A stretch of DNA of 64,000 bases from Gonatopus flavifemur (Eukaryota; Arthropoda; Insecta; Hymenoptera; Dryinidae): NCBI GenBank assembly GCA_018340375.1, contig JAFFJZ010000002.1, positions 14,960,001 through 15,024,000 of the forward strand, read 5' to 3'. The notes below the pieces were generated by a model, which was not told the DNA's origin, searched no databases, and saw nothing but the letters and a program-made list of their open reading frames with translations. How positions within the stretch are numbered: the first letter of the stretch is position 1; each line of letters opens with the position of its first letter. Both the position numbers and the translations under genes were made by a program. Shown in pieces: positions 11,917 to 62,289 of this stretch.

Positions 11917-12105
11917 CACTGAGAAAACTCTTCAGCTGAAGTAACTAAGAACAACATCAAGGATAAAATTGAGGTTGCTTGAACTAAAACATGATTTGTT
12001 ACAACAAAATTCTTCAGTCAAATGGACTATAATTAAACTGATGTTCAGTTGAGTTCGTATTTCACTAAAATTTTTAGTCACCACAACTAAACAGTTTTTT
12101 CAGTG
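11917..12105. mobile_element. CACTG MITE, 2-bp TT duplication
   Basis: 189 bp. Left end CACTGAGAAAACTCTTCAGC, right end the complement of CACTGAAAAAACTGTTTAGT. It is flanked by TT on both sides, and the flanks also share the longer string TTCCTT. The internal ends resemble the element at 31053-31252. CACTG termini point to a CACTA-like (CMC) transposase as the mobiliser. Confidence 0.7.
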
Positions 12106-13018
12106 TTCCTTTCAATTCCAAATTCAATCTTTAAATCCCAAAATGATCCCTATAAATGAGTACTCAAATGAATTTTCTGATCCACATTTTTGGCAATTAG
12201 AATATTAATTACGCCAATTAGTATCTTCTGTATATTATACCCTGTCCTTTTCACCCCCTGAACACAATAAGCACTTTACGATTCAAATTCGACTGTCTGC
12301 TCCCTACGTGTTGCGTTTGACTCTGCTTTCTAAAACAGATATGAAAAAAATATCCTGACCACTTCTTTTTCCATCAAGAGCTTACGTAATTTATGTACCG
12401 CCTTATATTGATCCAGGTCAGAGACCGTATAGAAGTCGAGCGGAAATGCAATATAGGCGATTCTTACATTTAAATGAAGAAAAGACATGAGATCATCTAG
12501 GAATTTCCATTAAGATTCTTATTCTCGTATCATTGAATTTTTGCAAAGACATTTCGAGTGACGAATCTACAGCAAACAATTATATCCGACAATGAACATT
12601 CGGGAATTGAATTCAAATTATGTAAAAATTCTATTGCAAAGTTTCAATTAGTAGGAATCCTAATTTAAGGTTGGAGTTTAGCTCGAAAATCAGAGTTAAT
12701 TGTAACCAAATTAATTCTGAATTTAGAAATTCATTCAAGCCTTTCAATTCAATTTGAATTAGGAAAAAGTCTTTGATTTATTCAAGGTTTGAAGAATCTG
12801 TCGAAACGTGTCTTGGAATTATTTCAATTGATAGATTAAAAATGTTAAAACCTCTGCACATAGCTCATTTCAAAACTGTTCACTCTTTCCACCAGCGCTT
12901 TTTGAAATCTCATGAAAATAAGTAATATTCCTAAATTGGGAATTGGCAATTGATAATTCCGCATTAGACATAACTGATCATGATTCAATGACAGGGTATT
13001 TTCTATTGAATATCCATG
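12106..13018. other. No feature recognised
   Basis: AT-rich spacer without open frames, terminal repeats or recognised similarity. Confidence 0.4.
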
Positions 13019-13234
13019 CACCCAGAAAAATGATTTACTTGAATATGAACCTACTAGACATTTCATTGCATCCAGTAAATTTTTACTTGATTTGAGGAAA
13101 TTTTATTTGAAATGACTAAATTTTTTATTTGATACAATTAAAATTGTATTAGGTTCATATTCAAATAGAAATTCAGTTGATTCAAACAAAATTCATTGAT
13201 TCCAAAAGAATCCAAGTATAAAATTTTCTAGGTA
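13019..13234. mobile_element. CACCC/CACTG-type MITE, TG duplication
   Basis: 216 bp. Left end CACCCAGAAAAATGATTTAC; right end TATAAAATTTTCTAGGTA, an imperfect inverted match. The arms continue through GAATATGAACCTA and TAGGTTCATATTC. TG flanks both sides (13017-13018 and 13235-13236). It belongs to the CAC-ended, 2-bp-duplication class of this window. Confidence 0.55.
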
Positions 13235-13574
13235 TGGATCACCTGTAAATCTTCGCAATAAGCCCATATATTCTCTACGATGCACTGAAAAACAAGAGTG
13301 TGCAGAGAACAGCAATATAGTTGGTTCAGACGCAGCAATAACGCTGGATACGTCCAACTGAAACTCACCGTTGACTCAACTACATGCAGTTGAATCGACT
13401 GCAATCCATGTCAGTTTGATAGTATATTCGTTAACTCAACTATGGTATCCATCTGTTTTAACCCTTAACGGCCACACTTCACTCAGGCCACATAACGGCG
13501 GCATGGAGTAACCTCATTACCCCACGCTGAAAAACCCGGTGGACAAGATGTGTAGGTGTTTTGAGACTTTTAAC

Positions 13575-13785
13575 CAGTGATGCCAGATTCGAGACCGAGA
13601 CCGCTCTTACCCTCTCCATCGACCGCTTCCCCTTTCTCCCACCATGCGGAACAAGTTGGGTGAGCGAGAGAGTGATAGTCACTCTTTCTATGTCGTTCAC
13701 CCGTCTTATTCTGCATGGTGGGAGAAAGGGGAAGCGATCAATGGGGTGAGTAAACACGGTCTCTGTCTCGAATCTGGCATCACTG
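13575..13785. mobile_element. hAT MITE, copy 2
   Basis: 211 bp with ends CAGTGATGCCAGATTCGAG and CTCGAATCTGGCATCACTG. The perfect 8-bp target duplication is CTTTTAAC (13567-13574 and 13786-13793). Nearly palindromic and clearly the same family as 2777-2989. The apparent open frames on both strands here are palindrome artefacts. Confidence 0.92.
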
Positions 13786-14199
13786 CTTTTAACTAATTGT
13801 GTTATGTTCGTTGACTAGTTCTTCAATATTTAATTTCTAGATGGCTTTTTTTGCAAAAAAATGCGCTCCTCCGCCATTTTACAATATTAATGACTGAAAC
13901 TCCAGGGTCGTCCGCACAATATATACCACTACCACAAAAAAACTAACAGTATCCACCAATTATTCAAAAAGTATATTTATTTTACAAAATTATTGGAAAG
14001 AAAACTGAAAAAAATCACAAATCATGGAATTGGCTTCTTCTTGCGTTTTATCAGATTTCAAATACATATTAGGAACGTGAAAATACTATGTATTGAAGTC
14101 ACACTTCACACATGTCTGTCACCGGCATGCCAAAAGTGGACCACAGTGGGCAAAAAACTCCAAAAAGTGATCAAAACTACTAACCACTCACCGATTTGT

Positions 14200-14600
14200 T
14201 CAGAAACTCGGCACTCGGGGGTTTTCGAGGTTGCTGATTACGAATTTGAAGTAAAAAATGGCGGATCCAATATGGCGGACTGAAATTGTGAATCAACTGG
14301 TTTCGCTTGAAATTCGCTGAGAGGAGGTTGAATCTGGAGTGAAAAATGATTAATTGAAAATGGCGGATCCAATATGGCGGACTCACATTGCAAAATCAGC
14401 TAGATTCGCTTGAAATTTGCTGTGAGGGGATTTGTGGGATCGCTGATTACGAATCAGGAGTGAAAAATGATGAATTCAAAATGGCGAATCCAATATGGCG
14501 GACTGAAATTGCAAAATCAGTTGGATTCGCTTGAAATTTGCTGTGAGGGGGTTTTTGGGGTCGCTGACTATGAATCTGAAGTCGAAAATGAAGATTCGAA
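14200..14600 (+). repeat. Degenerate tandem repeat, ~100-125-bp unit, 3-4 copies
   Basis: The core TGGCGGATCCAATATGGCGG recurs at 14259, 14361 and, with one change, 14482. It is followed each time by a GATTCGCTTGAAATT-type segment and GCTGATTACGAAT-type sequence. Spacings are 102 and 121 bp. It lies inside the 13462-17227 element and has no coding role. Confidence 0.75.
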
Positions 14601-15387
14601 TTACACTGTTAGAAATGTTTGTGAATGACATAACCATTCATCTACATTCCCGTATGGAAATATTTCGCTGAAAAATGTCTGCAAAACTATGAAAAATCTC
14701 TGAAAAAAAATGAAAAAACTCTGAGAAACTCTGACAAACTCTGAGAATCTCTGAAATTTTGATGAGAAATCTAATATTTTTGGGACATTCTTTACAGACT
14801 TTTTTCAGACCTTTTTCAGAGTTTCTCAGAGTTTTTTCATACTTTTTCAGAGGAATAGTAACGGAATTGCAATCTGAAAAAACTCTGAAAGAACTCTAAT
14901 AAATTGTTGACATTTTTCTGATTATTGAAAAATCCTGAAATTCAATAAATACATTCATATGCCGTATTCAAATATCTTGTGTGAAAAAGTGTTTGAAAAT
15001 TTTTTAATTCTTTTCTAAAAGTCAGAAAAATGTTAGCAATCCATCAGAGTTTTGTCAGAGTTTTTTCAGAGTGCAATTTCGCTACTATTCCTCTGAAAAA
15101 GAATGAAAAAACTCTGAGAAACTTTGAAAAAAGTCTGAAAAAAGTCTGTGAAGGATGTCCCAAAAATATTAGATTTCTCATCAAAATTTCAGAGTTTCTC
15201 AGAGTTTGTCAGAGTTTCTCAGAATTTTTTAATTTGTTTCAGAGATTTTTCATATTTTTACATACATTTTTCAGCGAAATATCTCCATACGGGTATGTAC
15301 ATGAAATTTGATACCTGTATCCTGAGCCAACTTCACTTTATTGATTGACAATGCAATCGACAATCAGATGTTATCAAATTCAAAGTA

Positions 15388-15555
15388 CGGCGAGTAAAAA
15401 AAGTCCGTGTCCGTTCCAACGGAAAGTTCCTTGATATTTTGTCGTTATTTGTAAAATGCTCAGATCTCACTTTCATTGATTGAGTACAGAACGAGTTTCC
15501 AAAATTCCAAAAATATTTCCGTTGGAACGGACACGGACTTTTTTTTTACTCACTG
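15388..15555. mobile_element. Tc1/mariner-type MITE, TA duplication
   Basis: 168 bp. Left end CGGCGAGTAAAAAAAGTCCG, right end the complement of CAGTGAGTAAAAAAAAAGTC. Both continue into GTGTCCGTTCCAACGGAAA and its inverted copy. It is flanked by TA at 15386-15387 and 15556-15557. The TA target and CAGTG-like tip suggest Tc1/mariner mobilisation. Confidence 0.75.
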
Positions 15556-15565
15556 TACAAATGTA

Positions 15566-15792
15566 CACTGTGAAAAATTTGTTTGTGGATTCACAAAAAA
15601 ATTTGGCAGTTTTTTATACAAACATTTTTTTAGTAGATTTCCAAACAAAATTTGAAAAAAAACCAAACATTCTTGTTAATCAATAAAAAGTTTTGATTCT
15701 CTTCAAATTTTGTTTGAAAATCCACTAAAAAAATGTTTGTCCAAAAAACTGCCAGAGTTTTTTGTGAAATCACAAAAAAATTTTTTACAGTT
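15566..15792. mobile_element. CACTG MITE, TA duplication
   Basis: 227 bp. Left end CACTGTGAAAAATTTGTTTG, right end the complement of AACTGTAAAAAATTTTTTTG (terminal C changed). The arms pair through GGCAGTTTTTTATACAAACA and TGTTTGTCCAAAAAACTGCC. TA flanks both sides. It lies 10 bp from the Tc1-type MITE, inside the 14604-15852 element. Confidence 0.7.
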
Positions 15793-15865
15793 TATATGAA
15801 AAAAAATTTCAAATCTGGTACATGAAATTTAACACAGATAATTCTAACAGTGTAGTGTTGGATTT

Positions 15866-16522
15866 CCCACACAACACCACAGTCCCAAACATCTTCAAAA
15901 GAACTCCTGTAAAAAAATTCCTTATGAATTCGATTCGATGAATCCACAAATAACTCATAAAGGGTACAATAAATTCCAAAAGAAGCCAGAAAGCATTTCA
16001 TATGAATGATGAGCCAAGTTCATGGAGAGTCCTCAATGACTTCATGAAGTATTTTAAAAGGAGGGTTGTTATTTCAGTGAAAGATGAATGCCTGGGAGTA
16101 TTCTTCTTTCAATCCAAAAAAGCTTTTCTTGAGTCCCCTGTGAAAAGGGTTCTAAGGAACTCATTAATAGTTCATAAATACTTCATAAATTAATGGATAA
16201 AAAGAATCTTGGGTTTAATAAATGTGAAAATATTCATTTCATTCAAGTTTCAAGCGCGTACCGTATGAAATCCTTACATGATCTCTTTATGCAATCTTTT
16301 TGGATCAATCATGAGCAATTTTTCCTTTTATTTTTATTATTGAAGAACTCTTTTGGGCGAGGGAAAGGATTCCCCCAGTGCTTTATTCTGAACTGACATA
16401 CGGGGGGAGTTCAAGAATTCTTATTGAATTTGTTTGGATGAATTAGAGTATTCATAAAGGATTCTTTGTGGAATGAGAGGAATTCATTAGGAATTATTTC
16501 TGAAATCTGTGTGCGGTGTGGG
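15866..16522. mobile_element. Element with short GTGTGGG terminal inverted repeats
   Basis: The ends CCCACACAACACCACAG and CTGTGTGCGGTGTGGG are imperfect inverted repeats. The interior holds many partly palindromic runs of the TTCATAAATAC/GAATTCTT type. No target duplication is secure. It lies inside the piggyBac-like element. Confidence 0.45.
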
Positions 16523-17030
16523 ATAATATTATTTAAAACTAAAACTATTGTTATCCATAACGGGCATCGCGATGCATCGGCTGTGTTTACGTTTTCTGAG
16601 TCTCTTAAGATCAGTTCAAAAAGAGAGCGACCAAACCTGCAACTTCCTGCAGCTAAATGAGATTGAGTCTGTTTCTATACATCATAAAGAAATATTCTAC
16701 GTTGGAATTAGCGAGTCACAAAGAGGCACAAATGTTCTGGAACTTGATGAAATCCTAAAACATTGAAATCTGACGATTATATACCTCCTCCTTCCACAGA
16801 TGCTGTCTGAAAAATCGAGGAAAATCATTTTCTAGCTTATTATATCACATTTCGACGAGAAAATTCAAGCCTGTTCATTTTCCTTGAATAATACTGAAAA
16901 ACATTGCAAATGAAGTTAAGGCAAATTTTGAGCATTTTTAACGTTTTTTCATATTCAACGATCCCCCACTGTCCTTCAATCAATTTTCACTCATTGATAC
17001 TCATGGCATGTCTTTGTTAGCTCATAAAGA

Positions 17031-17054
17031 ACATATATATATATATATATATAC
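17031..17054 (+). repeat. (AT)n microsatellite
   Basis: About ten AT dinucleotides in a row. Confidence 0.9.
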
Positions 17055-17288
17055 AACTCACTAAACTGGGGGAAATACTTTAAAACATTCAATTTTGCAC
17101 AGTTTTCCACGCTTTTGGTCCACTGTGCGGCAGGAGCTGTTTGTTGTATTTATTTGAAAGGTTTGAGACCTCTCATTCCATTTTTTTAAGCCTGGAGTAA
17201 CTAGTCACCCCGTGTGGCTGTTAAGGGTTGAAGAAAACCCCTAACGACAAGATGTAATTGATTTTGGACGGAATTTTTTTTCAGTGTG

Positions 17289-17525
17289 CACTGAGAGAAA
17301 TAATGATTAATATCAAGAATTTCAATTCATGAATACTGCCAAGAATACAAATTCTTGATTATTATATATATATATTATTGCCCAAAAAAAAATTTCCTTG
17401 AATCGAAAAATTTTTTTTTTTTTTTAAAAAATTTTTTTTAATATAATAACTTATTAAAAATCATTTTTTTTTTTTATTCTAATTAATATTAAAATTCTTG
17501 ATATTAATCATTATTTCTCTCAGTG
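17289..17525. mobile_element. CACTG MITE, TG duplication, abutting another
   Basis: 237 bp. Ends CACTGAGAGAAATAATGATT and AATCATTATTTCTCTCAGTG form near-perfect inverted repeats of about 30 bp around an A/T-homopolymer core. TG lies on both sides (17287-17288 and 17526-17527). The left TG is also the right duplication of the element ending at 17286, so the two insertions are back to back. Confidence 0.85.
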
Positions 17526-18434: not shown

Positions 18435-18467
18435 ATGATGTACAGGGGTGCCCAAGTCACGGTACAA

Positions 18468-21035: not shown

Positions 21036-21204
21036 GATGATGAACAAGGGCGACAAGTGAATAACTATGTAGTGTGTATATTGCAAGTGAATTTGATTCA
21101 TTCGCATAAGTATTTAAGTAATCGATCGAACAAGTATCAGGCGGTCGGATACACGGTAAAAAGTTAAACTTACTTCCATCCTGAAAATTAGTTGATTTTA
21201 ACAT

Positions 21205-21286
21205 GCAACCAAAACTAGCCTTGTTTTGATCAAAGTCTGCACCGAAAACAAATGCCGACACAATGGAAAAGACTGAATGTCAGTCA
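21205..21286 (+). repeat. Dispersed repeat, copy 1
   Basis: AACCAAAACTAGCCTTGTTT, CACCGAAAACAAATGC and GACACAATGGAAAA recur in the same order at 26965-27044. This is a diverged direct copy of about 80 bp of unknown origin. Confidence 0.6.
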
Positions 21287-24200
21287 TGTTTTCAAGTTGG
21301 ATGCAACCACATTCATTCGAACTTTTTATCGTGTAGTGGGGATGGTGGCTGGAAACCGTTGCCTTTGCGTTACATCTAATGCAGAACCCAGGTGACTGAT
21401 TCAAATGAATTTGGCTCTGCTATATGAATACACATTCCCAGATAGCATGCAAACTTGTCCTGAGCTCATCAAGACACAAGTCGTTGGGTTGTTTTTAGCT
21501 TGCAATGACAACCTTGTTAACTTATTGCCAGAGTTCTAGTAAGGCTACATCCTTGTCGCATGTCAATATCGGTAAACTTACCTTACTTACTAGCCTTGTG
21601 GCAAGGTTGAATCGATATCTAATTCATTCCTCGGATCTCCAAAACACCACGAGCCAAGAAGATCAATTTTAGATGAATTTTTATCCAACGAACGTTCAAT
21701 AAAAATGTTGATGTCTATAGCATTGTCAACTGTTGGATTCTCCAAGGTCTGGAAGCCCCGTTTGATGGTATCTTAGGATTCGTAGATCTATGGGAAAAAT
21801 CTATCGGTTGGCAACCATACCCACTTTGTATGTTTCCACCCCTTCAGAGTGTGATCTGACCGAGATAAAAACAATATATGTCTCTCAGAATCGTGAATAA
21901 TGTTTGAAAATCACAACAAAACTGGCACCGGACACCCCCTAGAGTTCTATTCTACTTCCTTGATTCAATGAAATTTGATTATAGATTCCATATTTCCCAC
22001 ACGGATCAACAATCCTTTCCAATATTGTCAATTGAAAATGATTGAAAGTGATATATTTTTCACACATTTTGTTTCATGGTCCCTGTGTTACTCTTTCTCA
22101 AGCATCATTTTTCACGCACGTTGTTCTATTCACGGGCAATACATCCCTATTCTTCACAAAATTCATCATCAATTAACTTTTGGTATTGAAATACCATCAT
22201 GATTCCCCTGCGACTAAAATCCTCTGGAAAACTTTCCATCTTTGTGACCTTTTTGACATATGTTACCGATATTGGCGTTGGCTTATATGAATAGATTCCT
22301 GCACAGTTTAATGGAATACTTTAGCCAAAACCATTTGTGACAGCGAGGCGCGTACGAGAAACGAGCCAATAAAAGGCAGTCGCCTCGCTTTCTTTAAGTA
22401 ATCGCTTTCCACGAATGGCAGAGTCGTCTGGTTGCCGTTTTGCGACGATTCGAAGGGTGAAAGTTTATTTGACGAAAGTATCACACACGTACTCTTCTCG
22501 TGTACGCTTATAAACATTCGAAATGCATATGTATCCAGCTTTCAAACACGTGCAGACATTTTTAGGGCTTTCATGTAACTCGATTTAACGCAATTCCGCG
22601 TGGAACGTTCGTCTTGGATATTACGAATTGTGCTTCAATATTTATTTTACGCTCTCATTATCAATTTGTGTATTCAGATGATGAGGATATTCGTTTATAT
22701 TATATGAACTTCATGCTTCTGAAAATAAATTCCCACCAATAGAAAAGGATTGAGCTCTCCTAGATTGAAGATAATAATTTATGTCTAGCAATTCAGTGAT
22801 TTTACTTTATATATAGCATCGTTTCCTTGTAAATGTGATAGTTGAGTTATACTGGAAATTATGATTCAGAAATATCGTTGCTCAAATGTCTGCAAGTGAA
22901 CGATGTTACATAAAAAGGAAGTGGGTGAATTACTCCAATCGATAAATGATCCTGAAACTGACATCCTCAATCGAATTGGAGAGTCACGTGTTTCTTATAT
23001 CTGTTACTAACTCTCCTACAAATTATTGAACCTTTATGACTTTTATTTTTTTCACATTACCCACGTATTCATACGATTCTTTTACGAATATCGTATGGGG
23101 CAGAATTGATCTTCTACGACTGGATACGCTCATAAATCATACCCCCGTCTCAATTCATATTTATTACATCATTTGGGGAAAAGAGGGGATTGTCGAATAA
23201 CTTTAATGTTCCTTCGAATCTGGAGTAAAGTCGTATTTAGACGATTTAAATATTCCGTCCAAACGGATTAACTGTCAACGTGGAAAAATTTTCATATTCA
23301 TATACAATTTATACATCAATGTATATAAATTTTATATAAATTATATTGAATTCTATAAAAGTTACGTATGATTTTGTATGAGATTCTGTTATCCATCTCG
23401 CAGAATATATTGCGGTAGACTGGGTACGGTTGTGACATTACGAATGACTGACGATGGGATTGTGAAAGCTCAGATCACCTGACGAGAGAGGGAGCGTTCT
23501 CGCATGCAGAAAATTGTGTATTAATTGTTTATGTCATATTATAAATGCTCAGAACATCAGGAAGAACTTTTGAAATTTTGTGACTGAAACTAAGTATTCA
23601 ATGCTGAACTATATTCCATGGTTTTCCATTAGTGTACATGCTATGCATATTTGTGTTACTTTTCAACAACAGCAGGACATGAGAGAATGAATAAATCATG
23701 GTTTTGTTTTACGAACCTTCCCCATTGTTGTGAAAACTGCGATAACTTTGAGAAAAATTGACTGGGGATGATTGTAACACGTTTCCTGACCTCATACATG
23801 CATCCTACTTTTATAGTACATTGATTACTTCATTTAATTTCATTTTGTGGATGCCTCGTTCGCAAAAACGCGTATCGAGAACACACTCAAAGAAAAATCT
23901 GGTTTGCATAACCAGGTAACGTAGTTATTTTTTACTCCAACCATTCTATCTAGTTGTTACAACCAGATTCACGTGACTTTGTCTTGTTTTCTTACTTATC
24001 ATAATCAGATTTCAGGTCACTGCAACTATAAATCCTCAATCATGCAAGGATGGGTGCTATGACCACGTCGCTTTTTTCTCAGGGCAGGAGAACACGACAT
24101 AACCTCTTACATGTTACCTCCCCATACAACAAACTTGCTGTGCAATCGTTGCTCTTACGTTGTTGATCAAGTCTTCGTAAAGTTGCTGGGAATTTGCTAC

Positions 24201-24872: not shown

Positions 24873-25422
24873 CCACCGTTTTCTATAAGGGATTTTCCAC
24901 ATTCGATACAATCGATTAGTTCTTCTATACATGAAAGACCGTTTGTACGAATGCATATTGACAATCAATATTCACATATTTTAAGTTAATAAATAATTTA
25001 CTCCATCATCCACGAACAATCCATGAATTTTCACACACTTTTCGAGAATTGTTCGTGGATGATGCACGGAAAGAATAATTTAGCTGCAGCACCTAAGTGG
25101 CTAGCACGGACATGTACAGCCATTAAATTAGCTCCTGTAGCTAAATTTTAGCTGTTATAGCAAAAAAAATTTGCATTTGTAGCTAATTTATTTGCGGTGG
25201 TAGCTAAAATTTAGCTGCGGGAGCTAATTTAATGGCTGTCCGTGTCTGTGCTAGCCATTTAGCTGCTGCAGCTCAATTATTTTTTCCGTGTGGAGTAAAT
25301 TATTTATTAACTCAAAATATGTGAATATTGACTGTAAAAATGCATTCGTACAAACGATCTCTCATGTATGGAAGAACTAATCGATTGTATCGAGTGTGGA
25401 AAATCCCTTATAGAAAACGGTG
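24873..25422. repeat. Snap-back inverted repeat, ~165-bp arms, with a MITE in one arm
   Basis: The left arm runs from CCACCGTTTTCTATAAGG (24873) to about 25037 and is matched almost base for base by the right arm ending at 25422. The spacer near CCATGAATTTTCACACACTT is about 20 bp. The right arm is interrupted by the 226-bp element at 25065-25290. The open frames on the two arms are mirror images of each other and are not genes. Confidence 0.85.
25065..25290. mobile_element. Family C MITE (CACGG ends), copy 1, TG duplication
   Basis: 226 bp. Left end CACGGAAAGAATAATTTAGC, right end GCTCAATTATTTTTTCCGTG. It is rich in TAGCTGCAGC/AGCTAAATT motifs and nearly palindromic. TG is duplicated at both ends. 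The opposite arm of the host hairpin shows a single GATGGAG at the insertion point, which proves the 2-bp duplication. A second copy lies at 40883-41107. Confidence 0.9.
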
Positions 25423-26126: not shown

Positions 26127-26645
26127 CTCTCTAAAATTTTTAGAGTGAGATTTCACTCTTTAGGCAGCCAGAAGTGAACTTGTCGAAATTTCGAGTGAAA
26201 TTCCCACTCTTTTAGAGTGGAAGTCTAAGGTTTTACACTGAAAAAAAATGTATTCCAGTCAAATAAATATTTATTTGTCCTGTACCAAAGAAATATTCAT
26301 TAGAATTACCAAAATATTCTTTGGAACCAAAATAATTTATTTGAATTAAATAAATGGTTTTAATCGTTTATTTGATTCCAATAAATTATTTTGGTTCCAA
26401 AGAATATTTTGTTAATTCTAATAAATATTTCTTTGGTACAGGATGAATAAATATTTATTTGACTGGAATAAATTTTTTTTTCAGTGTAGGTAAGAAACTC
26501 TCAGCCACTCCAATTTTGGAGTGAATTTTCCATTCTAAAAGAGTGAGAGTTCACTCGAAACGAGTGAGAATCCCACTCAAAGCGAACTAGCTCACTTCTG
26601 AGACTTGTGGAGCAGTTGATTTTTCACTCTTTCAGATTTAGAGAG
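26127..26645 (+). mobile_element. Family H element, copy 2, interrupted by a CACTG MITE
   Basis: Ends CTCTCTAAAATTTTTAGAGT and TCTTTCAGATTTAGAGAG, flanked by TA on both sides. The body has the H-family alternation of ACTC and GAGT, with CAGCCAGAAGTGAACTTGTC near the left. The insertion 26236-26486 splits it. Copy 3 (51996-52269) gives the uninterrupted sequence at that point. Confidence 0.8.
26236..26486. mobile_element. CACTG MITE, near-perfect full-length hairpin, TA duplication
   Basis: 251 bp. Left end CACTGAAAAAAAATGTATTC, right end GACTGGAATAAATTTTTTTT then TCAGTG. The two halves pair over almost the whole length (for example CCTGTACCAAAGAAATATTC and its complement). TA flanks at 26234-26235 and 26487-26488. 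Comparison with the H copy at 51996 shows a single-copy target, confirming the 2-bp duplication. Confidence 0.92.
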
Positions 26646-27044: not shown

Positions 27045-27667
27045 TTTTGACTCCCACAACCCTATTCAGAAACCATTATATCATGTTTTTAAGAGTCCTA
27101 AATATGCAACTCCTCGAAAATGCTTGAAAATCAGTGAATTTCACTCAAATTGTGGTGGACGAATTAATTCCACAAAAACATTTCTCATTTTCTCTTCTAT
27201 ATTCAATGAATCTCTGTAGTTTCTTCTCGGATTGCTGCAGAAATGAGGGAAATTTTCATACGAACACATTGATTCAAACGGTCGTCATTTCACTCCCTGC
27301 TCGATATAAAAATGTCCTGCTTTTGCCAACGGTGACAATCAATTATAGCTCAGTACAAGACTGCGTGCCAAATCTTGCCAATCAATGTTAATAAAAACAT
27401 GACAAAAGGGTGTACCATTATTAGCATTTAGTGAATTGATTTTGTAAACCCACGATTGTCTTAACCATTCATTCAAGCCTGCGACAAACTATCGCTAACC
27501 CTCGGCTCAATTTGGACTGAATAAAATGGCTAAATTTTACTCCACACTGAGAACCCGATTCCTCAGATTTGAGGGGAATTTCTTTGCCATCATTCTGATA
27601 AATCTTGTTTTCAATGGAAAAGATAGTTCATTACAATGAGAGAATTCTTCATTGAATTAAAATTATA
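27045..27667. other. No feature recognised
   Basis: AT-rich spacer left of the Tc3-like element. The short open frames show no recognisable similarity. Confidence 0.4.
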
Positions 27668-27673
27668 CAGTAG

Positions 27674-27696
27674 TGGAAATTGGTATGAAGGCACTT
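27674..27696 (+). repeat. Tc3-like outer terminal repeat, left
   Basis: TGGAAATTGGTATGAAGGCA plus CTT. It pairs with 29214-29235 at the right end and recurs internally at 27858-27880. Confidence 0.85.
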
Positions 27697-27857
27697 GAAT
27701 TATGAAGAGAAACATAGGTTTGATGTTTATCTAAAATACTCATATGATTGTTTTTGTTTCGAGTGAGTACAATAATCAAGAAAGTCTTACAAAGACTGAG
27801 TCTCGTTGTTTTATTTTGAGGAAATCATGGAATAATTGCAAAATCAGCAATTTAATG

Positions 27858-27880
27858 TGGAAATCGGTATAAAGGCACTT
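27858..27880 (+). repeat. Tc3-like internal repeat, left
   Basis: TGGAAATCGGTATAAAGGCA plus CTT, a direct repeat of the outer motif 184 bp inside. It is inverted at 29029-29052. Confidence 0.85.
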
Positions 27881-28027
27881 CACATCGTGCGAATTCAGGG
27901 AATGTAAAAGATCTCTACTGTCCTCCGTGGTTGCACTAACATCAACACGGGTTTGTTTATAAACATAAATCTCACAGTTGAACGGTAGAAACGCTTTTGT
28001 GAAGAGTAGTAATCAGTTATTGCAAAC

Positions 28028-28973
28028 ATGCCACGTGGTTACCAATTATCGAGTGAGGGAGAAGCAAAAATTAGTGCTCACAAGGAAATGGGTTTATCTA
28101 ATCTGCAAATCGCGAAGAAATGGAACCGTTCGAGTTGTGTGATTGATAATTTTGTGAGATTAGGCTCGAGATACGGGAAAAATGGAAAGTACGGCAGGAA
28201 AAAAAATTGCCTAAGACAGCTGAACGATTAATTTTGCGCATAGCAAAAGCTGGAAATGTGTTTTCTTCACAAATTGTGGCTGACTTGAACTTACCTATTA
28301 CTGCCAGAAAGGTCAGGCAAATTTTATCAAAAGATAAAGATCTGGTTTTCCAGAAACGCTGCAGTAAACCACCTTTAACGGATGCTCATAAGAAAGCCAG
28401 AATAGATTTTGCTCAAAAATACATGTCCTGGACCTCAGAATGGGACCAAGTGATTTTCAGCGATGAAAAAAAATTCAATTTGGATGGGCCAGATGGATTC
28501 CAGTATTATTGGCATGATCTCAGAAAGGAGGAGCAGTTTAGCATGAGCAGAAATTTTGGTAGAGGAAGTGTCATGATCTGGGTGGCATTTCGAGCCACTA
28601 ATAAATCAAATATTGCGTGGTGTCCCACTAGAATGAATTTAGACATGTATATAAAGATATTAGAGACTGAATTAGTGCGTATTCCGTTCATGCGTTCTAA
28701 AAAACGAAAGATTGGTTCAAGCAGAAAAATATCAAAGTCCTCAGCTGGCCAGCAAGAAGTCCAGATTTAAATCCGATTGAAAACCTTTGGGGAGTACTTG
28801 CAACGCGTGTTTATCGAAATAGACGACAGTTTCAAACAGTTACTGAGCTTAAAAATGCGACTCGAGGAGAATGGATGAGGATTTCCGATCAAGAGACAAA
28901 ACCCCTTATCAACACCATCCCTAACAGAATTTTTGAGATAATTAAGAACAATGGAAGTGTAACAAAGTATTAG
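28028..28973 (+). pseudogene. Tc3-like transposase, inactivated
   Basis: DDE-type transposase with an N-terminal helix-turn-helix region starting MPRGYQLSSEGEAKI and continuing to KWNRSSCVIDNF. The catalytic core follows: first Asp in IFSDEKKFNLDGPDG, then GRGSVMIWVAF, and the last acidic part in SWPARSPDLNPIENLWGVL, with the C-terminus ending at 28971-28973. Two lesions are visible. An A8 run at 28199-28206 shifts the frame after GKYGRKK. Near 28688-28700 a deletion and a stop remove the segment that carries the second catalytic Asp in relatives. The start at 28028 lies well inside the left terminal repeats, as expected. It cannot make active enzyme. Confidence 0.9.
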
Positions 28974-29028
28974 GGACATTTATGAAGCCATTCTTATTCT
29001 TATTTGTTACTGATTTTGTAAAAAAAAC

Positions 29029-29052
29029 AAATGCCTTTATACCGATTCCCAT
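29029..29052 (-). repeat. Tc3-like internal repeat, right
   Basis: AAATGCCTTTATACCGATTC plus CCAT, the inverted form of 27858-27880, about 185 bp from the outer right motif. Confidence 0.85.
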
Positions 29053-29243
29053 CAAAAATACAAAAGTTTCTGTTTTTCTCAGTGATTTTCTCAAAATAAT
29101 ATGAAATAATATCACTTTATTATATTTTTTATTCGATAACACTTGAAAGTTGTTAAATATATGACATAAACGTTGTTTGAGAGGAATAAGTTTGTTATTT
29201 ATGCAGGAAATTCAGTGGCTTTATATCAATTTCTACTACTGTA

Positions 29244-31052
29244 TTCGTCGAATTCAAGAAGGAATATATATCTCTGTCTCAAATTGAAAATTTTTTGTTT
29301 CAATCTGATGAAAAATTTTTCCATTGAGAAAAATATTTATCAGAATGGGGGGAAAGAAAATTTTCTTTCAATCTAAAAAATTGGGGTCTCTCAGTGCGTG
29401 GTTTGACAAGAGTTGGGCTCAATCTTGGCTGCGACTGCCGGTCTTGGCCCAAACATGGTTCACTATTTCACCAATTTTAATTCTATGTTGGAAAGAAGGA
29501 TCGACGAAGCATATAATGATGTTATGATTCCACAGTCGCTCCCTCGTGATGTCGAAGTTCGTCCAATCTTGGACTACATGGCGCCATTCTTGAACCATTG
29601 GTCAATTTTCATTTGGGGCAGGACACATGGAACATTTTCCGAAACTTTCAGAAATATTTCTAGCTGATTCTCCAAAGAATATGAGCATATACATGTTGGA
29701 AAATTCATGACCCCATACTTCAAGATTTGAACTGATAAATGACTTTTCGATCGATATATCGGAAATCCGATTCGCTGGCATTTACGCTGGGAATAAAATT
29801 CATTCCGCCGAAAAGCATTGCGAAAGAGTAAGATGCTTCCATCACCGATATTATGGTGATAGCAACAAAAATTTAATTCATAGTTTGAGGTGGAAATTGC
29901 AGGGCTTCGAATCGCCTATTCAAGTGTAGCACATTGCATTCGTAGACCTCCCTAGAGATATCGAACCGCTGCTACACTTTGCCCGTACCGGCCGTTCCTG
30001 TTTAAATATTCATGAACGTCTTTGTAATCGATGTAATATGGATCGGGGCGTGATCTCACGTGTCAGAAAGTAAATGGGCCTGCATTTTCACTGATCGTTG
30101 CTCGCGTTGCCATAACCAGAAAGAGTCACCTGGTGTCTGATTCAAATGTATAATTTCGATCCAAGAATACAGGGAAAATTTATCGAATTCCGAAAGCATG
30201 AGCAGATATCATGATTAACGTCGATACACGTGAAACGATTAATCATAGAATACCTATCGTATCTCTTCCTCCAGTTTCTCGTTTTCCGATTAATTACGCT
30301 CGGGACTATCAAAGTGGAATATTGTTTTTTTTTCGTACAATGGGATCTTGATTCATTGGGGATTCGGGAGATACTTGTGGAATTATTGATGTTTCCACAT
30401 TATGTTGATTTCTCTGTTTCACTCTTCATTCAACTACGGTACTATCACGCGAACACAGATCTTGTAGAAATTTATTTCGGATATTCTTGTTGGCGAATAT
30501 CACACGGGACAACATCAAAAAGAATGAGAGAGGAGATCTTCAAAATTCGGATGTCTTGATTCTTTTTATGATGACGCGATCGACGACCAGTTCGATTCGA
30601 GTTCCAGGTCTTGAAAATTCATTCATTATACTGAAATGAACGGGTATTCCATCCCATAAGCTGCGCATCGAAGGGTCTCTTTGGTTAAGATTCTTAAGAG
30701 AAATTTTTTATTTCTTGACACACTAAGTTTAAAAAAAAAACACTAGAAGATGAAAGCGGGCATAATTTTGGGCGATTGGATGATCTGGAAAGAAGGCCAA
30801 TTATTCCTTGTTGAAATGGCTATCGTAAGAACTAGAATCGTTTTGATTAGTCAGAAATCCCCCGATTTTCATCCGATATAAGATGAAGGTAGGAAATACT
30901 TCAAAAATCGGCTCTCTCGAAAAATGGCCGTCATTTGGTTATTTTTTCAAATCAAAAATATACCCCAGTTCATGCGGTAGCCACTTGGACAAGGGATAAG
31001 TTGCCATTGTTTTTTTTTTCTTAAGATCATTTAGTCGCCCAAAATCATGCCG
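29244..31052. other. No confirmed gene; one orphan open frame
   Basis: Spacer right of the Tc3-like element. The only notable item is the open frame at 29413-29667. Poly-A and poly-T runs occur near 30730 and 31010. Confidence 0.4.
29413..29667 (+). CDS. Unassigned open frame, possible exon remnant
   Basis: I do not recognise this product. The frame reads from about 29413 for 84 codons and contains GPNMVHYFTNFNSMLERRID and PRDVEVRPILDYMAPFLNHW. This composition is more protein-like than other chance frames in the window. It has no ATG at its left edge (the first codon is TTG) and an in-frame stop lies just upstream. If real, it would have to be an internal exon, with the AG at the end of TTTGACAAG as a possible acceptor. 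It may equally be chance. Confidence 0.2.
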   Translation: MGSILAATAGLGPNMVHYFTNFNSMLERRIDEAYNDVMIPQSLPRDVEVRPILDYMAPFLNHWSIFIWGRTHGTFSETFRNISS

Positions 31053-31252
31053 CACTGAAAAAACTGTTTAGTTGTCGTGACTAAAAATTTAATGAAATAC
31101 GACATCAAATAAAAAATTCAGTTGTCGCGACAAAATATTAATTGCTTCAACTAAAGATTTTTGTTGAAACAAACAATATTTCAGTTCAGGCAACTTAAAT
31201 TTGTCATTTGATGTCGTTTTTTGGTTACCGCAACTGAACAGTTTCATCAGTG
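31053..31252. mobile_element. CACTG MITE, CG duplication
   Basis: 200 bp. Left end CACTGAAAAAACTGTTTAGT, right end the complement of CACTGATGAAACTGTTCAGT. The internal arms carry GACATCAAATAAA/TTTGATGTCG. CG lies on both flanks. It is related to the element at 11917-12105. Confidence 0.75.
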
Positions 31253-31631
31253 CGCCGTCATTTTTTGGTGTTGTGGTATTGAAAAATCAGTATGTCAACA
31301 ACAAATGTTTTTGTACTATTTGATCTTCAATAAACATACCTACAAATTTTCAGAACAATATCTATATCTCTTCTATGAAGGAAAATGTTGGAAAAAGAAT
31401 GTTTTTCTGAAAATCTCAGCCAACCTTCAATTTCACCTCGGACTGAAGGTGTAAAATTGAATTTTTCGAATGATGGATACAGAGGTGTGAAAATTATTAG
31501 AATAATTGTTATTTCCAAAATAACTCCAACTTTTGCCTCAGATTATGCATTTATCTGTGAAGTACTATTTTGTCTTATTGATTTGATGTATAGAAAATCC
31601 AAAACTCATTTTATAAAAAAATTCTTTTAGT

Positions 31632-32600
31632 ACCCCGCTCCACTCCCAACTACGCCATAAGGCTGGAGGTGGGGAGGGTCCCGTTGGAGGTGTTCGTTTT
31701 CAAACAGACTCTCAAATGGCTAGAAAGAATCCTTAGCATGCCTGATGATCGCCTTCCAAAAATTTGCTTCAACAAATTGAAGGTACTATCTGATCGCTCG
31801 GGAAGCCTTACAAAACACAATGTAATTTTGCAAATCAAAGATATGTTTACAACAGCAAAAGCTACGAATCTTTGGAACGCTTTATCACTTCCAACAATTC
31901 AAAGGAACAGAAGCATACTTGTGACTGATTTTGCAGAAATATTATACAAAAATGGCTTAAATAGGTTAAAAACCAGTGCATCCCTCCAATTATATCCTCA
32001 TCTATCCTTAATACGGGGACCACAGAAATATCTCAACATCAAAATTAAAACGTACATGAGACAATTATTCGCGCAGGTACGATTGTTTAATGATTATAAC
32101 CCGAGATTTATAATAGGTGAAAATCTATATGTTTTTGAAAACAATCATATCTGTCTACAATGTCTCAACCCAATGTCCAGCAGGCTCTTCCATGTACTAG
32201 TAGAATGTAAACGCTTTGATAACAAAAGAGATAACTTGTTCGAAGAACTTGGATTTCATGCACAAGCGAAAGACGGATGGCTACTTATATTAGTCAATCC
32301 AGATAAATGGCGTATTGCAAAAGTTTACGAATTAATAAAAAATGTATGCGCTCACCTCTAATTAGTAAAAACTGATTATAAAAAGAAAAAAAAAATGTAC
32401 AACGAATGGATACTCGTAAGGACTTTATATGAAATAAGCACGGATACTAACAATATGTATGATTCGCGATAGGAGAAAGTATGTAAGATTTATTAAGTTA
32501 GGCTCAAGTAAATTTAAAGATAATTAACTAAATGTAACTCTTTGTATAGATCTTTTGATCTTGAGCAATAAATTCAATTATATATATGTTGTTGTTATAT
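31632..32600 (+). mobile_element. 5'-truncated LINE fragment with 3' end
   Basis: The 3' portion of a non-LTR retrotransposon. It has coding sequence to 32361, then an AT-rich 3' UTR with AATAAA at 32568 and an AT-rich tail. A family H copy starts at 32613, just beyond. No target duplication was found. The start is placed where the recognisable frame begins. Confidence 0.65.
31633..32361 (+). pseudogene. LINE ORF2 C-terminal region with CCHC-type motif
   Basis: An open frame of more than 230 codons without internal stops. It has the look of the region downstream of the reverse transcriptase in insect LINEs. YAIRLEVGRVPLEVFVFKQT near the start and LPKICFNKLKVLSD follow the usual layout of that region. 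Near the end, CLQCLNPMSSRLFHVLVEC gives the C-x2-C-(n)-H-x4-C zinc-binding pattern found at LINE ORF2 C-termini. The endonuclease and catalytic reverse transcriptase domains are absent, so it is a truncated, inactive fragment. The clade (for example I, Jockey or R1 group) cannot be fixed by eye. Confidence 0.7.
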
Positions 32601-41162: not shown

Positions 41163-41813
41163 CACGGAGAAGAATACGGATCGGAAATATAGTAATCTTT
41201 GATAAAAAGGTACCTAGTTGCGGCAACTAAAATTTAGTTGTCCAAGCTGAATTTTAGTGGGCGCAAATAAAAGTCTACTCGTCTGAAATATGAACAGGTT
41301 ATTCAAATGTAAATAAAACATTCAGCTACGACAAATAAAATTGATTTGGTTCAACTGAATTTTTATTTAGAATTGCCAAATTTCCTAGCTGTCTAGTATT
41401 CAACTGAACCCTTTTTCTCAGTGGAAACCTGAGAATATTCCTGAAATTTTCAATAAAGATAAAACGATTCACATTTTTGTTGAATTTGACTTGGAAAAGG
41501 ATGAAATATTATCAATACTGAACAAAAAATAGGAAGAAGTACTATATGAATTTTCCGTAAGTGACGCATGGAGTATTACGAACTGAATAACAAAATTCCT
41601 GAATCTCATTAATCACTTTGTGAAAATTTCATGCGCGACTTTTGAGAGGTTGATATTTTTTCATATCGTTCGTCAAGTATTGATAATTTTTTGTCCTTTT
41701 TCAAGTAAAATTCAACAAAAATGTGAAGCGTTCGATCTTCTTACAAATTCAAGAAATATTCTCACATTTTCTGTTGAAGATTATTATATTTCCGATCTGC
41801 ATTTTTCTCCGTG
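41163..41813. mobile_element. Family B element, copy 2, TG duplication
   Basis: 651 bp. Left end CACGGAGAAGAATACGGATC, right end GATCTGCATTTTTCTCCGTG. The arms pair through CGGAAATATAGTAATCTT. TG lies on both flanks. It shares internal blocks with 33675-34965. An inner region with AACTAAAATTTAGTTG motifs may be a nested MITE. Confidence 0.8.
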
Positions 41814-44225: not shown

Positions 44226-44393
44226 CACAGAAAAAACTAATATAATAAAAATTACAACATTTTCTGGTGAATTAATACAGCTAATGCAATAATTTTCACC
44301 ACATTCGGTAAGAAAGCCTCTGAGACCGTTAATCAGGCAATTATGACATTTAACGAAATAATACTATCTTACTAGACATTATTTTTCTCCGTG
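44226..44393. mobile_element. CAC-ended MITE, TA duplication
   Basis: 168 bp. Left end CACAGAAAAAACTAATATAA, right end TTATTTTTCTCCGTG. TA lies on both flanks. It is related by its right end to the CACGGAGAAAA families. Confidence 0.65.
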
Positions 44394-48416: not shown

Positions 48417-48799
48417 CGCGGAGAAAAAGGAGTAGTGATAAGCTACTGAGCGAATGATGTTGGAGTTTAGATGATCGTTATTTATCTTCCCGAATTGACT
48501 CCTTGGAGTTGGAAACATCGTTTAAACAATGCATTGGAAGATGCTTGGTCTTCAACAATTGAGTATCTCGTTATTTGATCACTAATTCGTTTCAATAAAC
48601 GATTCAAACTTCGAACATATAAGCGAATAGTGAAATATGGACAGACCAAACTGCGTAATCATGAGAACTGAATGGTTCAAACGGAATGACGATTCACTTA
48701 GTTAGACTAACGATACGTCTAGATCGAATGACGATCGCATTGATTGTAGGGACTAAATGTTTGGTTCGTCCATATTTTACTGCACCAGTTTTCTCCGTG
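48417..48799. mobile_element. CACGG-type foldback element with family D insertion, TA duplication
   Basis: Left end CGCGGAGAAAAAGGAGTAGT (second base changed), right end GCACCAGTTTTCTCCGTG. TA lies on both flanks. Past the insertion the arms pair through AGTGAAATATGGACAGACCA and its complement near 48760-48783. The D copy 48456-48620 lies in the left arm. Confidence 0.7.
48456..48620 (-). mobile_element. Family D MITE, copy 6, internally shortened
   Basis: The right end TTCAATAAACGATTCAAACT then TCGAACATAT is the inverted D terminus. The left end GATGTTGGAGTTTAG lacks the usual following block. The flanks GAGCGAAT and AAGCGAAT are an 8-bp duplication with one mismatch. Confidence 0.75.
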
Positions 48800-51521: not shown

Positions 51522-51771
51522 CATCATGAGAAAAATCGGTAAATTTATCGATAAATTCTCCGGCAATTCAGTTAGCGATTAACCCGAAGAAAAACTCGGA
51601 GGAATTACTGAGATTCCAGCAAATATACGAGAAAATGTGGTGAATGTACCAATTTCTCAGTAATTCTACCGAAAAAGTCGATAAATTTACCCAAAATTTC
51701 CATCCACTGTGATCGGCTTAATTGCTTCCCGAGAAATTTTGGTAAATTTATCGAAATTTTTCTTCACTGTG
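51522..51771. mobile_element. Foldback MITE, TA flanks
   Basis: Left end CATCATGAGAAAAATCGGTA, right end the complement of CACAGTGAAGAAAAATTTCG. The arms share GGTAAATTTATCGA. TA lies on both flanks. It is tentatively placed with the CAC-ended class. Confidence 0.55.
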
Positions 51772-51995: not shown

Positions 51996-52269
51996 CTCTC
52001 TCAAATTTTTAGAGTGAGATTCCACTCTTCAGTCAGCCAAAAGTGGGCCTGTCGAAATTTTGAGTGAAATTTCCACTCTTTTAGAGTGATATTCCAAGGT
52101 TTGAGGTTAGAAACTCACAGCCACTCAAATTCTAGAGTGAATTTTGCACTCTAAAAGAGTGAAGGCTCACTCGAAACGAGTGAAAATTCCATTCGGAACG
52201 GACTAACTCACTTCTAAGACTTAGTAGAGTGCGAAACACGTGATTTTTCACTCTTTCAGATTTAGAGAG
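51996..52269 (+). mobile_element. Family H element, copy 3, uninterrupted
   Basis: 274 bp between CTCTCTCAAATTTTTAGAGT and TCTTTCAGATTTAGAGAG, flanked by TA. Near-complete reference copy for family H, with AGGTTTGAGGTTAGAAACTC at the site where copy 2 was interrupted. Confidence 0.85.
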
Positions 52270-55449: not shown

Positions 55450-56616
55450 ATCATCACGAAGTAATCAGTCTTACGACTGGTTTGATGGAACCCTCCACCC
55501 CTGTCTATTATCCGCCAAACGTTTAATTTCTACATATCTACTGCATCTCTTGTCTTGTACGATTTGCTTCATATAACTTGTTCTAGGTCTACCTTTACCA
55601 GTTTTACCATTCATTTTCCCTTCCAATATTGTTTTCAATAAACTCTCATGCCATAATGTGTGTCCTATGAGATTGCTTCTCCTTTTCACGATGTGTTTCA
55701 GAAGATTTCTTTTTTCATTTATCTGCTCGAGTACTTCTTCATTTTTGACTTTGTCTATCCATTTTATTCTGAGCATCCTCCTATAACACCACATTTCAAA
55801 AGCTTCAAGTCTTCGTTGATCAGTTTTCCCCATTGTCCAAGTTTCGCAACCATATAATGCTGTGCTCCAAACGTAACTTTTCAAGAATTTCTTCCTTACT
55901 CCCAAGCTTATATTTTTTGAGCATAATAACTGTTTCTTTTGGTAAAAAGCCTTTTTCCCTTGTGCTATTCTTGCTCTTATATCTCTTTCGCTTCTGCCGT
56001 TTTCTGTAATTATGCTTCCTAGATATTTGAATTCTTTCACCTGTTCAATTGTCTCGGTATCTATTTTGATTTTTGTTCTTCTAGCTGTTTTCGCTGCTGT
56101 ACACATCATGAATTTTGTTTTGTCTTTATTTATATTCATACAATAGTTTTCCAATAATATTGTTCTCATAGTGTTGAGAATATTTTCTAACTCAGTACTA
56201 CTCGTGGCAAGTATAGCTATGTCATCCGCGAATCTCAACATACTTATATTTTCTCCCTGAATCTGTAATTTCGTTTGAATTTCCTCCTTCACTTCGTTCA
56301 TTGCTTCTTCTATATATAAATTGAAAATCAGTGGCGATAATGAGCATCCTTGTCTCACCCCTCTTCTTATTTGTGCTTCCCCTTCCTGACCCTCTATGTC
56401 TATTATTGCACTTTGATTCTTATATAATTCGTATATTATTCTTCTATCTTTATAATTTATTCCCACCTTCTTCAGGATCGCAAACATCTTCTCCCATTCC
56501 ACATTATCGAAAGCCTCTTGTATATCTACAAAACCTATGTACACAGATTTCTTCAGCGCTATCCTTTTCTCTATCACTGCCCGAAGTGCTAAAATTGCTT
56601 CTCGCGTTCCCCTATT
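55450..56616 (-). mobile_element. 5'-truncated LINE insertion with 12-bp target duplication
   Basis: 1167 bp bounded by TTTGGGAGATAT on both sides (55438-55449 and 56617-56628). It is in minus orientation. The 3' end is a very short TGATGATG tail next to the target duplication rather than poly(A), as in RTE- and CR1-type LINEs with microsatellite tails. It is 5' truncated within the reverse transcriptase, the usual product of incomplete target-primed reverse transcription. Confidence 0.92.
55471..56612 (-). pseudogene. LINE reverse transcriptase, partial, frame open
   Basis: An open frame of about 380 codons. It starts, already within the RT domain, at GTREAILALRAVIEKR and runs to the natural C-terminus VPSNQS. 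Recognisable parts in order: YIGFVDIQEAFDNVEW (first catalytic Asp), GVRQGCSLSPLIFNLYIEEA (palm/finger motif), LRFADDIAIL (FADD catalytic pair), a thumb region with VKEFKYLGSIITENGRSERD, then YGCETWT and LEAFEMWCYRRML. The absence of stops suggests a fairly recent insertion. It cannot be functional alone because the N-terminal endonuclease and start of RT are missing. The layout resembles RTE-like elements, but the clade is not proven. Confidence 0.9.
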
Positions 56617-56638
56617 TTTGGGAGATATAACCCCTTAA

Positions 56639-58726: not shown

Positions 58727-59410
58727 GAATTGGACATTTCTCATTCAATGCTATTAAATATTCAATCCCGTAAATATTCCTTTTATTTCCTATAAATTGC
58801 ACTGAAAAAAACATTTCATCGAAAATCAATTATATTTTGTTGTTAGGGCAACTGAATATCATAGTCAAGTCAACGAATATACGGCCAGATTGACAGTATA
58901 ATCGTTGACTTGACACCATGTATTCTACTGTTGAATCAACTATATCACCGTTGTCTGTACCCACCTTTTTTTTCAGTGTGGGATGATCGAATAATCCAAT
59001 TGAAACCTCTTGACCAATAAAATAAACAAACTCAAATCAAATTGGATATTCTGGATAGAAACCCAGTAAGTCTTGAATTTTTTACAATTTTCCCATCGGT
59101 TCCGATAGACCGAAATCACCGAAAATTCTGATAAAAATCGATGATTTAATCCGCTGAAAGGAATTCTGAATTCGAATTGGATATTTCTCATTCAATCCTA
59201 TTCAATTTTCAGATCCGTAAATGGTCCTATTATTCCCCATGAATTCGGCTAGTGGAATAATCCGATTAAAACCTACAGACCGATCAAATCTGTACGAACT
59301 CTAATCGAATTGGACATACTTCATAAAAACCGATTGAATTTCCCATTACGTAACATTTCCGATTGGTTCCAATAGCTTTAGGTCATGGGAATTCCCGATA
59401 AGAACCATTT
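58727..59410 (+). repeat. Two-unit tandem duplication, first unit interrupted
   Basis: Unit 1 (58727-59155) and unit 2 (59160-59410) share AATTGGACATTTCTCATTCA-type starts, GAATAATCCxATTxAAACCT and TTTCCxATTACG/CCCATCGGTTCC segments. Unit 1 holds the CACTG MITE 58800-58978; unit 2 shows the unoccupied site. Confidence 0.65.
58800..58978. mobile_element. CACTG MITE, TG duplication, reference for 13283-17286
   Basis: 179 bp. Left end CACTGAAAAAAACATTTCAT, right end ACCTTTTTTTTCAGTG. TG lies on both flanks (58798-58799 and 58979-58980). The inner arms CAAGTCAACGAATATACGG and ATAATCGTTGACTTGAC are inverted. The second tandem unit lacks the element, confirming the 2-bp duplication. Confidence 0.9.
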
Positions 59411-60058: not shown

Positions 60059-60182
60059 TCATCGAAGATTGTTTGAGGTTCGAAAAAGTTTTGACTCGAT
60101 CTTCTATGAAAATTGGACTGTTCTAATCTTCTCAGCATATCGATATAATCTCTTGAAATGTGTAATTTTCACTTATTCTATA

Positions 60183-60657: not shown

Positions 60658-60846
60658 CTTCTGAACCACGATGTAAGAAGAATAGGTGTGTTATCTTCCC
60701 TGTCGGTGTGAACATTCTTTGATGCGGGCTTTGTCCTAGTTCCAATTTCGCCACCAGTTGGCGAAAGTGTCGTGAAGGCCAGATAAATTTTTTTTTTTAA
60801 AAAAAAATCAAGTTTAAATGAAAAAAACTTCCTCTGTAAATGTTAT

Positions 60847-60880
<34 letters not shown>

Positions 60881-61035
60881 ATTTTTTTTTAGTATTTCCA
60901 ACATCTATTATTTTTTTTTTTTTTTTTTTTTTTGAGCTACTCGAATTTTCGTGCAAAAAAAAAATCAAGAACTAAAAAAAAAAAACAACACACACAAAAC
61001 AAACACACCTATTCTTCTTACATCGTGTTCTGAAC
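60658..61035. repeat. Inverted-repeat element with long homopolymer core
   Basis: TGAACCACGATGTAAGAAGA (60662) is mirrored by TCTTCTTACATCGTGTTCTG (61014), with GAATAGGTGTGTT continuing each arm. Between them lie T and A runs of 20 bases or more (about 60861-60892, 60910-60933 and 60955-60990) and a small hairpin TTTCGCCACCAGTTGGCGAAA minus its last base. Confidence 0.6.
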
Positions 61036-61498
61036 TATGCACTAAAATACTGATACATTAAAAGTATTAGCCTGGTAATAGCGATGAGTTTGCTCTCCAA
61101 AGAGCTCCTGTTGAGGAATACACGGAGAACTCTCATGAATTGATGCCGAACTATTATGGATTCGGAGTGATAAACTTCGTGCTGAAATCGTCTGGTGAGA
61201 CAATTCCAACTTGGAGACTTTGAGAGAAGTTTCTTGAAGTGGGAGCTAAAATCGTGTTCAGTGTTTCATATTTGGATCAAATTCATTGCAAGAATTATTT
61301 GGTATTAGGAACTATGTCGAAATTATGATACGATCCAAGGATAAATTCATGCCCCTAGTAGTTCTCTTTATTAGGTCAGTCATTGAGATAATTGAAGAAA
61401 AATATGAATAGTTCTTCTATGCGATTGAAGGACAACTATCGATCGTGATTCCATCTTGGAAATTCTGATGATATATTTTGAGTTATTGTGATTCTTAA

Positions 61499-61700
61499 CC
61501 CTTACGAGGTAACGTCATTTTGGATAGCTCCTACGATTGGCTCCTATGAATGCTATTTACGAACTGAAGTGATGACACTTGGGGAGCTTATAGCCTCCTA
61601 GTGTGCAATTACTTGGGATATAGTCTGCGTACTCTTCCCTTCAAATTAGCAAGAGAAGATTTTGAAAAAGCATGAGCGACCCAACGTTACCTCGTAAGGG
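61499..61700. mobile_element. piggyBac-like MITE, TTAA duplication
   Basis: 202 bp. Ends CCCTTACGAGGTAACGT and ACGTTACCTCGTAAGGG, perfect inverted repeats. TTAA lies on both flanks (61495-61498 and 61701-61704). CCC tip plus TTAA is the piggyBac signature. Confidence 0.88.
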
Positions 61701-62117
61701 TTAAACTTGCCTGTTCCACATGAAGGGAGAGTCCTGTGGTACTGTAAATCCGAATTCGTGAAAAATATTCAAAATCTGAATTTGTGCAATTGGTCAGTAC
61801 CGTCGGTTGGCCAGTATTGCCGGACTCTTCATTGCTGAATTGTTCAGGAATTGAGTGATTGTATGATACAATAATGATTGAAAAACATTGAATAACTTGA
61901 AGCAAAATTCCCGCGATTTTGATCAAACTTTCACAAAAGATTGATCAAAGCTCAGAATTTTTTAGACCATTGGACAAGTATAATAATATTTGTTGAACTT
62001 TTCAAAAGTATCTTGCTGAATAGTGTAAATAATCGATCAGGAACACTCGATCCAAACAATATTGGAACTCATCTGGAATAATCGGAATAATCGGAAGAGA
62101 AAGATCATGGAATGATC

Positions 62118-62289
62118 ACTACAGAAGATAAATAGTAAACTGGTGACAACTACGAATTTCTGTACACCGTCGCTAACAGAGACGAGTAATGGTACCTGTT
62201 TTGGTATACTCAAGTACAATATAGTGGAGGACATCAAGGACTGTGTACAGAAATTCGCAGGTGTCACCAGTTTACTATCTTTTCTAGTG
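62118..62289. mobile_element. CACTA-ended MITE, AT duplication
   Basis: 172 bp. Left end CACTACAGAAGATAAATAGT, right end ACTATCTTTTCTAGTG. The arms pair for about 55 bp through AAACTGGTGAC and GAATTTCTGTACAC. AT lies on both flanks. The literal CACTA tip supports placing the wider CACTG/CACGG set near CACTA elements. Confidence 0.8.

Follow-up and report, generated by a model that had tools for sequence, protein, structure and literature searches.

Non-coding elements with common CAC tips and 2-bp target duplications in a 64-kb stretch of the Gonatopus flavifemur genome

A stretch of 64,000 nucleotides from the hymenopteran Gonatopus flavifemur (assembly GCA_018340375.1, contig JAFFJZ010000002.1, positions 14,960,001 to 15,024,000), hereafter called the window, is crowded with non-coding mobile elements that have a common end sequence beginning CAC and are flanked by a 2-bp target-site duplication. 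These elements are probably non-autonomous cut-and-paste DNA transposons of the CMC (CACTA/EnSpm) type, some resembling miniature inverted-repeat transposable elements (MITEs) and others longer. The observations on which this assignment rests are the inverted common tips, the 2-bp duplication, a preference for pyrimidine-purine (YR) dinucleotides, dispersed copies, nested insertions and empty sites. The assembled genome comprises 636 Mb in 402 contigs, and loci elsewhere in it were sampled for comparison with the window.

The duplication was evaluated on 66 inverted pairs collected by script from the window and the other genome loci (two L001 duplicates excluded). A tip filter blind to the flanks, composed after the first elements had already been seen, passed 35 of these pairs and dropped 31, some of which had matching flanks. 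Identical 2-bp flanks were observed for all 10 passing pairs in the window and for 21 of the 25 elsewhere. When the boundary was displaced by 1-4 bases, matches fell to 0-3 of 10 and 0-6 of 25, respectively. Random re-pairing of the flanks (10,000 shuffles) gave a mean of 14.7 and a maximum of 24 matches of 35 compared with the 31 observed, so the identity of flanking dinucleotides claimed in a preliminary description of the window holds against a shuffled control. The length of 2 bp given there was likewise upheld, as lengths of 1 and of 3-8 bp gave 0-1 matches among the flank-blind pairs. No pair of the 35 matched over 3 or 4 bp, as would a Chapaev-type duplication, or over the 5 bp duplicated by Transib elements. 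The length observed in the 31 pairs and at the empty sites described below lies within the 2-3 bp characteristic of CACTA/EnSpm (CMC) elements. One Markov-3 resample of all sampled sequence yielded a single pair, compared with 68 in the real sequence, a count that includes mispairings and unrelated palindromes.

Both tips of 42 elements (84 in total), for which matching flanks and near-CAC tips were conditions of entry, were combined into a profile with the consensus CAC[T 0.73, G 0.26]G[A/T][A/G]A[A/G]AA, which fades past position 12. The CAC..GTG terminal inverted repeats typical of CACTA/EnSpm (CMC) transposons are present in this profile, the set having been picked for near-CAC tips. Together with the flank-blind pairs, the profile bears out the earlier view of one class of elements with CAC tips, 2-bp duplications and varied interiors. 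The duplicated dinucleotide was TA in 27 of the 42 elements, TG in seven, CA in four, TT in two, CG in one and AT in one. The target is mostly YR, with TA dominant, followed by TG, CA and CG; the earlier characterization of it as mostly TG/TA has to be corrected accordingly. Single tips lacking a partner followed a YR dinucleotide in 22 of 27 cases in the window (0-1 for five permuted motifs) and in 35 of 45 cases in 200 kb of genome sequence (0-7 for the permuted motifs); YR makes up about 23% of dinucleotides in the sampled sequence. One spelling of the tip, CACTGAGAGAAA, occurs 9,373 times genome-wide and its reversed control 63 times; 8,267 of these occurrences (88%) are preceded by YR, compared with 19 for the control, counts that include copies duplicated along with their flanks. 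No YR rule for such elements appeared in search listings of open-licence papers, and lookup of one 22-mer in viral contigs gave no matches.

Further duplications were obtained from a repeat at 41197-41423, which is nested within the element at 41163-41813 and has a decayed left tip. Relatives of this repeat occupy 39 other places within the 40 top-scoring ones. In the family found via 41200-41423, both tips were present at 25 of 29 further loci, and the 2-bp flank was identical at 20 of the 25. Seven dinucleotides were represented (TA nine times, CA four, TG three, and GG, CG, AA and TT). Loci L022 and L027 have common flanks, and therefore 19 of 24 cases are independent.

Empty sites were sought in the sampled sequence for up to 55 elements by joining the flanks minus one dinucleotide. 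Nine elements yielded acceptable paralogues that span the junction, some of the alignments containing gaps away from it. The dinucleotide was single and unchanged at the empty sites of seven: CA for L034:4108 and L024:1501, TA for L043:3814, L038:5018, L008:2076 and L019:2022 (the last site lying inside another CAC-tip family), and TG for the window element at 25065. The latter case is weaker, since the empty site there is formed by the opposite strand of the palindrome itself and runs into the flank. At five uninterrupted paralogues of 26236-26486 (32806-32663, 52025-52182, 20351-20198, L028 and L011) the spacing fits, with the dinucleotide GA instead of TA, and one empty-site paralogue of 58800 likewise fits in spacing and carries TC instead of TG. 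Other rows were set aside for overlap with the element itself or a neighbour (L033:353, L040, 17289, 7310), as gapped (31053), as repetitive (L038:3526) or as partial (the L025 rows, including that of 25065).

The most probable account of these features is that Transposase_21 genes at other genomic loci would provide a CACTA-type DDE transposase in trans. This enzyme would recognise the common tip, excise the element and join it to the target strands with a 2-base stagger at a flexible YR step, and gap repair would then leave the 2-bp duplication. The tip is probably the greater part of what the transposase requires, which would explain why elements with different interiors have it in common. 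A profile search of the genome for Transposase_21, the CACTA/EnSpm transposase domain, gave 136 matches at E<=1, with 80 above the cut-off; the domain was found in 0 of 14 control genomes. Many of the matches above the cut-off lie in long open frames of up to 859 amino acids. None of the 136 is on the window's contig, in agreement with the earlier statement that an autonomous copy is absent from the window. The 80 matches are candidates for the CMC-type transposase that the preliminary description proposed to look for in the genome. Among ten frames of at least 110 amino acids in the window, two were searched in Pfam: 28150-28770 matched a Tc1-type domain (HTH_Tnp_Tc3_2) below the cut-off and was set aside as a Tc1-like fragment, and 31594-32361 had no Pfam match. 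A further open frame of 387 amino acids at 55474-56634 resembles a retrotransposon reverse transcriptase.

Several observations weigh against the CMC assignment. No element was seen that combines CAC tips with a transposase gene. The sequence downstream of four Transposase_21 families was read over 500-800 bp beyond four genes (two copies of one family, L051 and L052, and one copy of each of three others). Stop codons follow IPYGCYGD or IPRGCLGD in L051, L054 and L055, and no such end was recognised in L053. A correctly oriented CAC..GTG end was not found in the 220-430 bp past three Transposase_21 stops (L051 and L052 by eye), and the single tip past a stop, in L051/L052, points away from the gene and was therefore rejected as the end of that Transposase_21 element. 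What lies there is an element of the family of 58800-58978, present downstream of the Transposase_21 gene in four copies that are 99-100% alike. In the scoring for L052, 36 of 40 places match this element at 96-98%. Its 30-base end occurs in 104 exact genome copies, all 104 after YR; the flanks are however 67 CA, 2 CG and 2 TA among the 71 rows that show sequence. This family has more likely been amplified from a single site, perhaps as part of a larger repeat, than inserted independently, and with CA in 67 of 71 rows it was left out of the independent evidence for duplication. The 2-bp identity is also missing in four of the 35 flank-blind pairs, of which L030:1963-2957 is probably mispaired, L033:8639 and L040:3281 each have a one-base difference and L043:3703 a two-base difference, and in five of the 25 loci of the 41200-41423 family, where four mismatches are single transitions and one is a transversion. 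Finally, the animal elements SmTRC1 and Spongebob and other animal TRC elements start with CCC, not CAC (PMC1636069, PMC4298943).

The chief alternative, itself unlikely, is that another lineage (Mirage-like, ESTA-like, PHIS/ISL2EU-like or undescribed) makes the 2-bp duplications and that the Transposase_21 genes move something else. It draws on the lack of an association between tip and transposase in the stretches read beside Transposase_21 genes, and on the 2-bp duplications of ESTA and some PHIS lineages (PMC12730594). ESTA and PHISTA are however described with TA only (PMC12730594), whereas 15 of the 42 duplications here are not TA. The abundance of Transposase_21 matches, often in open frames, also argues against another lineage, a point weakened by the genome search having covered Transposase_21 only. 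It is improbable that several unrelated transposases arrived independently at similar tips. The interiors differ, the tips vary (CACTGA, CACTGT, CACGGA, CACTA) and 80 Transposase_21 loci suggest several sources, but the elements have the first 11 tip positions and the YR duplication in common. Still less credible are Tc1/mariner MITEs, whose duplication is always TA, with the non-TA cases explained as mutations or errors. TA is indeed the commonest duplication and mariner/Tc1 remains are common in the sequence studied, but both flank copies read TG, CA, CG, TT or AT in the 15 non-TA elements, 11 of the 20 matching pairs in the 41200-41423 family are non-TA, and empty sites carry CA or TG. Such matching non-TA duplications contradict the Tc1/mariner explanation, and the mariner/Tc1 elements that were seen have different ends. 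Chance palindromes with coincident flanks, despite the many other inverted repeats in the window (210 pairs listed), have a negligible probability, being contradicted by the shift, shuffle, resample and reversed-pattern controls.

All 18 element starts listed in the preliminary description were read, and both tips were recognisable with an identical 2-bp flank in 15; the remaining three are probable decayed elements, plausible only, at 13019-13234 (TG, right end approximate and by eye), 33675-34965 (GA, with a mutated left tip and the right one at 34965) and 51522-51771 (TA, right end approximate and by eye). Sizes range from about 150 bp to 4 kb, the interiors are often foldback, and the families were sorted by eye. 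The largest element, of 4,004 bp, occupies 13283-17286 (TG) and contains 14604-15852 (TA), which in turn contains 15566-15792 (TA, right tip decayed to AACTG). The interior of the 14604 element includes a palindrome at 14704-15239 with 229-bp arms built of repeated CTCTGA-type units. An element at 17289-17525 (TG) adjoins the right end of the largest one. Duplications of TA flank 26236-26486, 37605-38706, 44226-44393 (left tip decayed to CACAG), 48417-48799 (left tip decayed to CGCGG) and 21152-21333, the last being absent from the earlier list; a relative of 37605-38706 at L005:2103-3159 has CA. TG flanks 25065-25290, which lies within a larger palindrome, as well as 41163-41813 and 58800-58978, the member of the family amplified genome-wide. 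The remaining elements are 40883-41107 (CA, with tips resembling those of 25065-25290), 31053-31252 (CG), 11917-12105 (TT) and 62117-62289 (AT). At 11917-12105 the duplication length is ambiguous, as the flanks also agree over the 6 bp TTCCTT. The element at 62117, which has CACTA tips, had been placed one base too far right, at 62118. The 19 window elements, the three doubtful ones counted, span about 9.9 kb of the 64 kb. Across 200 kb of the genome, sampled as 20 dispersed stretches of 10 kb, 17 elements covering 9.1 kb were kept, a lower bound obtained with stricter automatic pairing that also demanded matching flanks.

Remains of other transposons lie among these elements. Within 27545-29396, a Tc1-like relic that ends in CAGTAGTGG and is flanked by TA (approximately 27670-29241, by eye) is seemingly nested in a CAC-tip element whose own flanks are CA and CG. 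Mariner-like pieces with a DDE_3 match are nested in a CAC-tip element with a CA duplication at L034:4108-6221; this locus, one of the long pairs considered as autonomous candidates, was rejected because the ends of the mariner pieces lie inside it (by eye). Another candidate, L031:1410-2543, was rejected as a mariner-like gene with CAGGGTGGGG ends (by eye), and the candidate at L040:4376-8307 looks like a spurious pairing across a host gene. Separately, TATA-like boxes past the Transposase_21 stops at L052:345-600 and in L053-L054 hint, by eye, at a second gene.

The tip together with the YR dinucleotide can serve as a simple rule for annotation, and it also tells these elements apart from mariner MITEs, which have TA only and for which the TA majority might be mistaken. 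A broader proposal, which we regard as rather doubtful, is that a single transposase lineage, requiring a minimal tip of about 12 bp and relaxed in its choice of YR target, mobilised many otherwise unrelated foldback DNAs in one animal-like genome; if its transposase is not of the Transposase_21 type, the lineage would be one not yet described in the CMC clade, with 2-bp YR duplications as its defining trait.

Among known systems, the CMCT clade has CA..TG ends and duplications of 2-5 bp; its fungal, EnSpm-like member ESTA duplicates 2 bp as here, with TA only in place of YR (PMC12730594). Chapaev elements, of the CMC clade, have CAC..GTG termini as well but duplicate 3-4 bp (TWA for Chapaev3) rather than 2 (PMC4079192). 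The animal CACTA/EnSpm elements ENS1_Cis, SmTRC1 and Spongebob share the 2-bp duplication (PMC6004678, PMC1636069, PMC4298943). In SmTRC1 it was reported for 7 of 14 copies and the transposase domain is Transposase_21, but SmTRC1 is a 4.5-kb coding element (PMC1636069), whereas the elements here are non-coding. The closest resemblance by description is to the CMC-NA MITEs, which like ENS1_Cis have CAC..GTG ends and a 2-bp duplication. CMC-NA_1 and CMC-NA_2 were reported in 2018 from polydnaviruses and their wasps, where the autonomous partner was not found (PMC6004678). They are non-coding and, by their description, likewise have these ends and this duplication. As they already possess the defining features, the window elements are not a new kind. 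The difference is that a single host genome here contains many families as well as Transposase_21 genes; with CMC-type elements so common and many such genes in the same long-contig genome, the missing link becomes directly testable.

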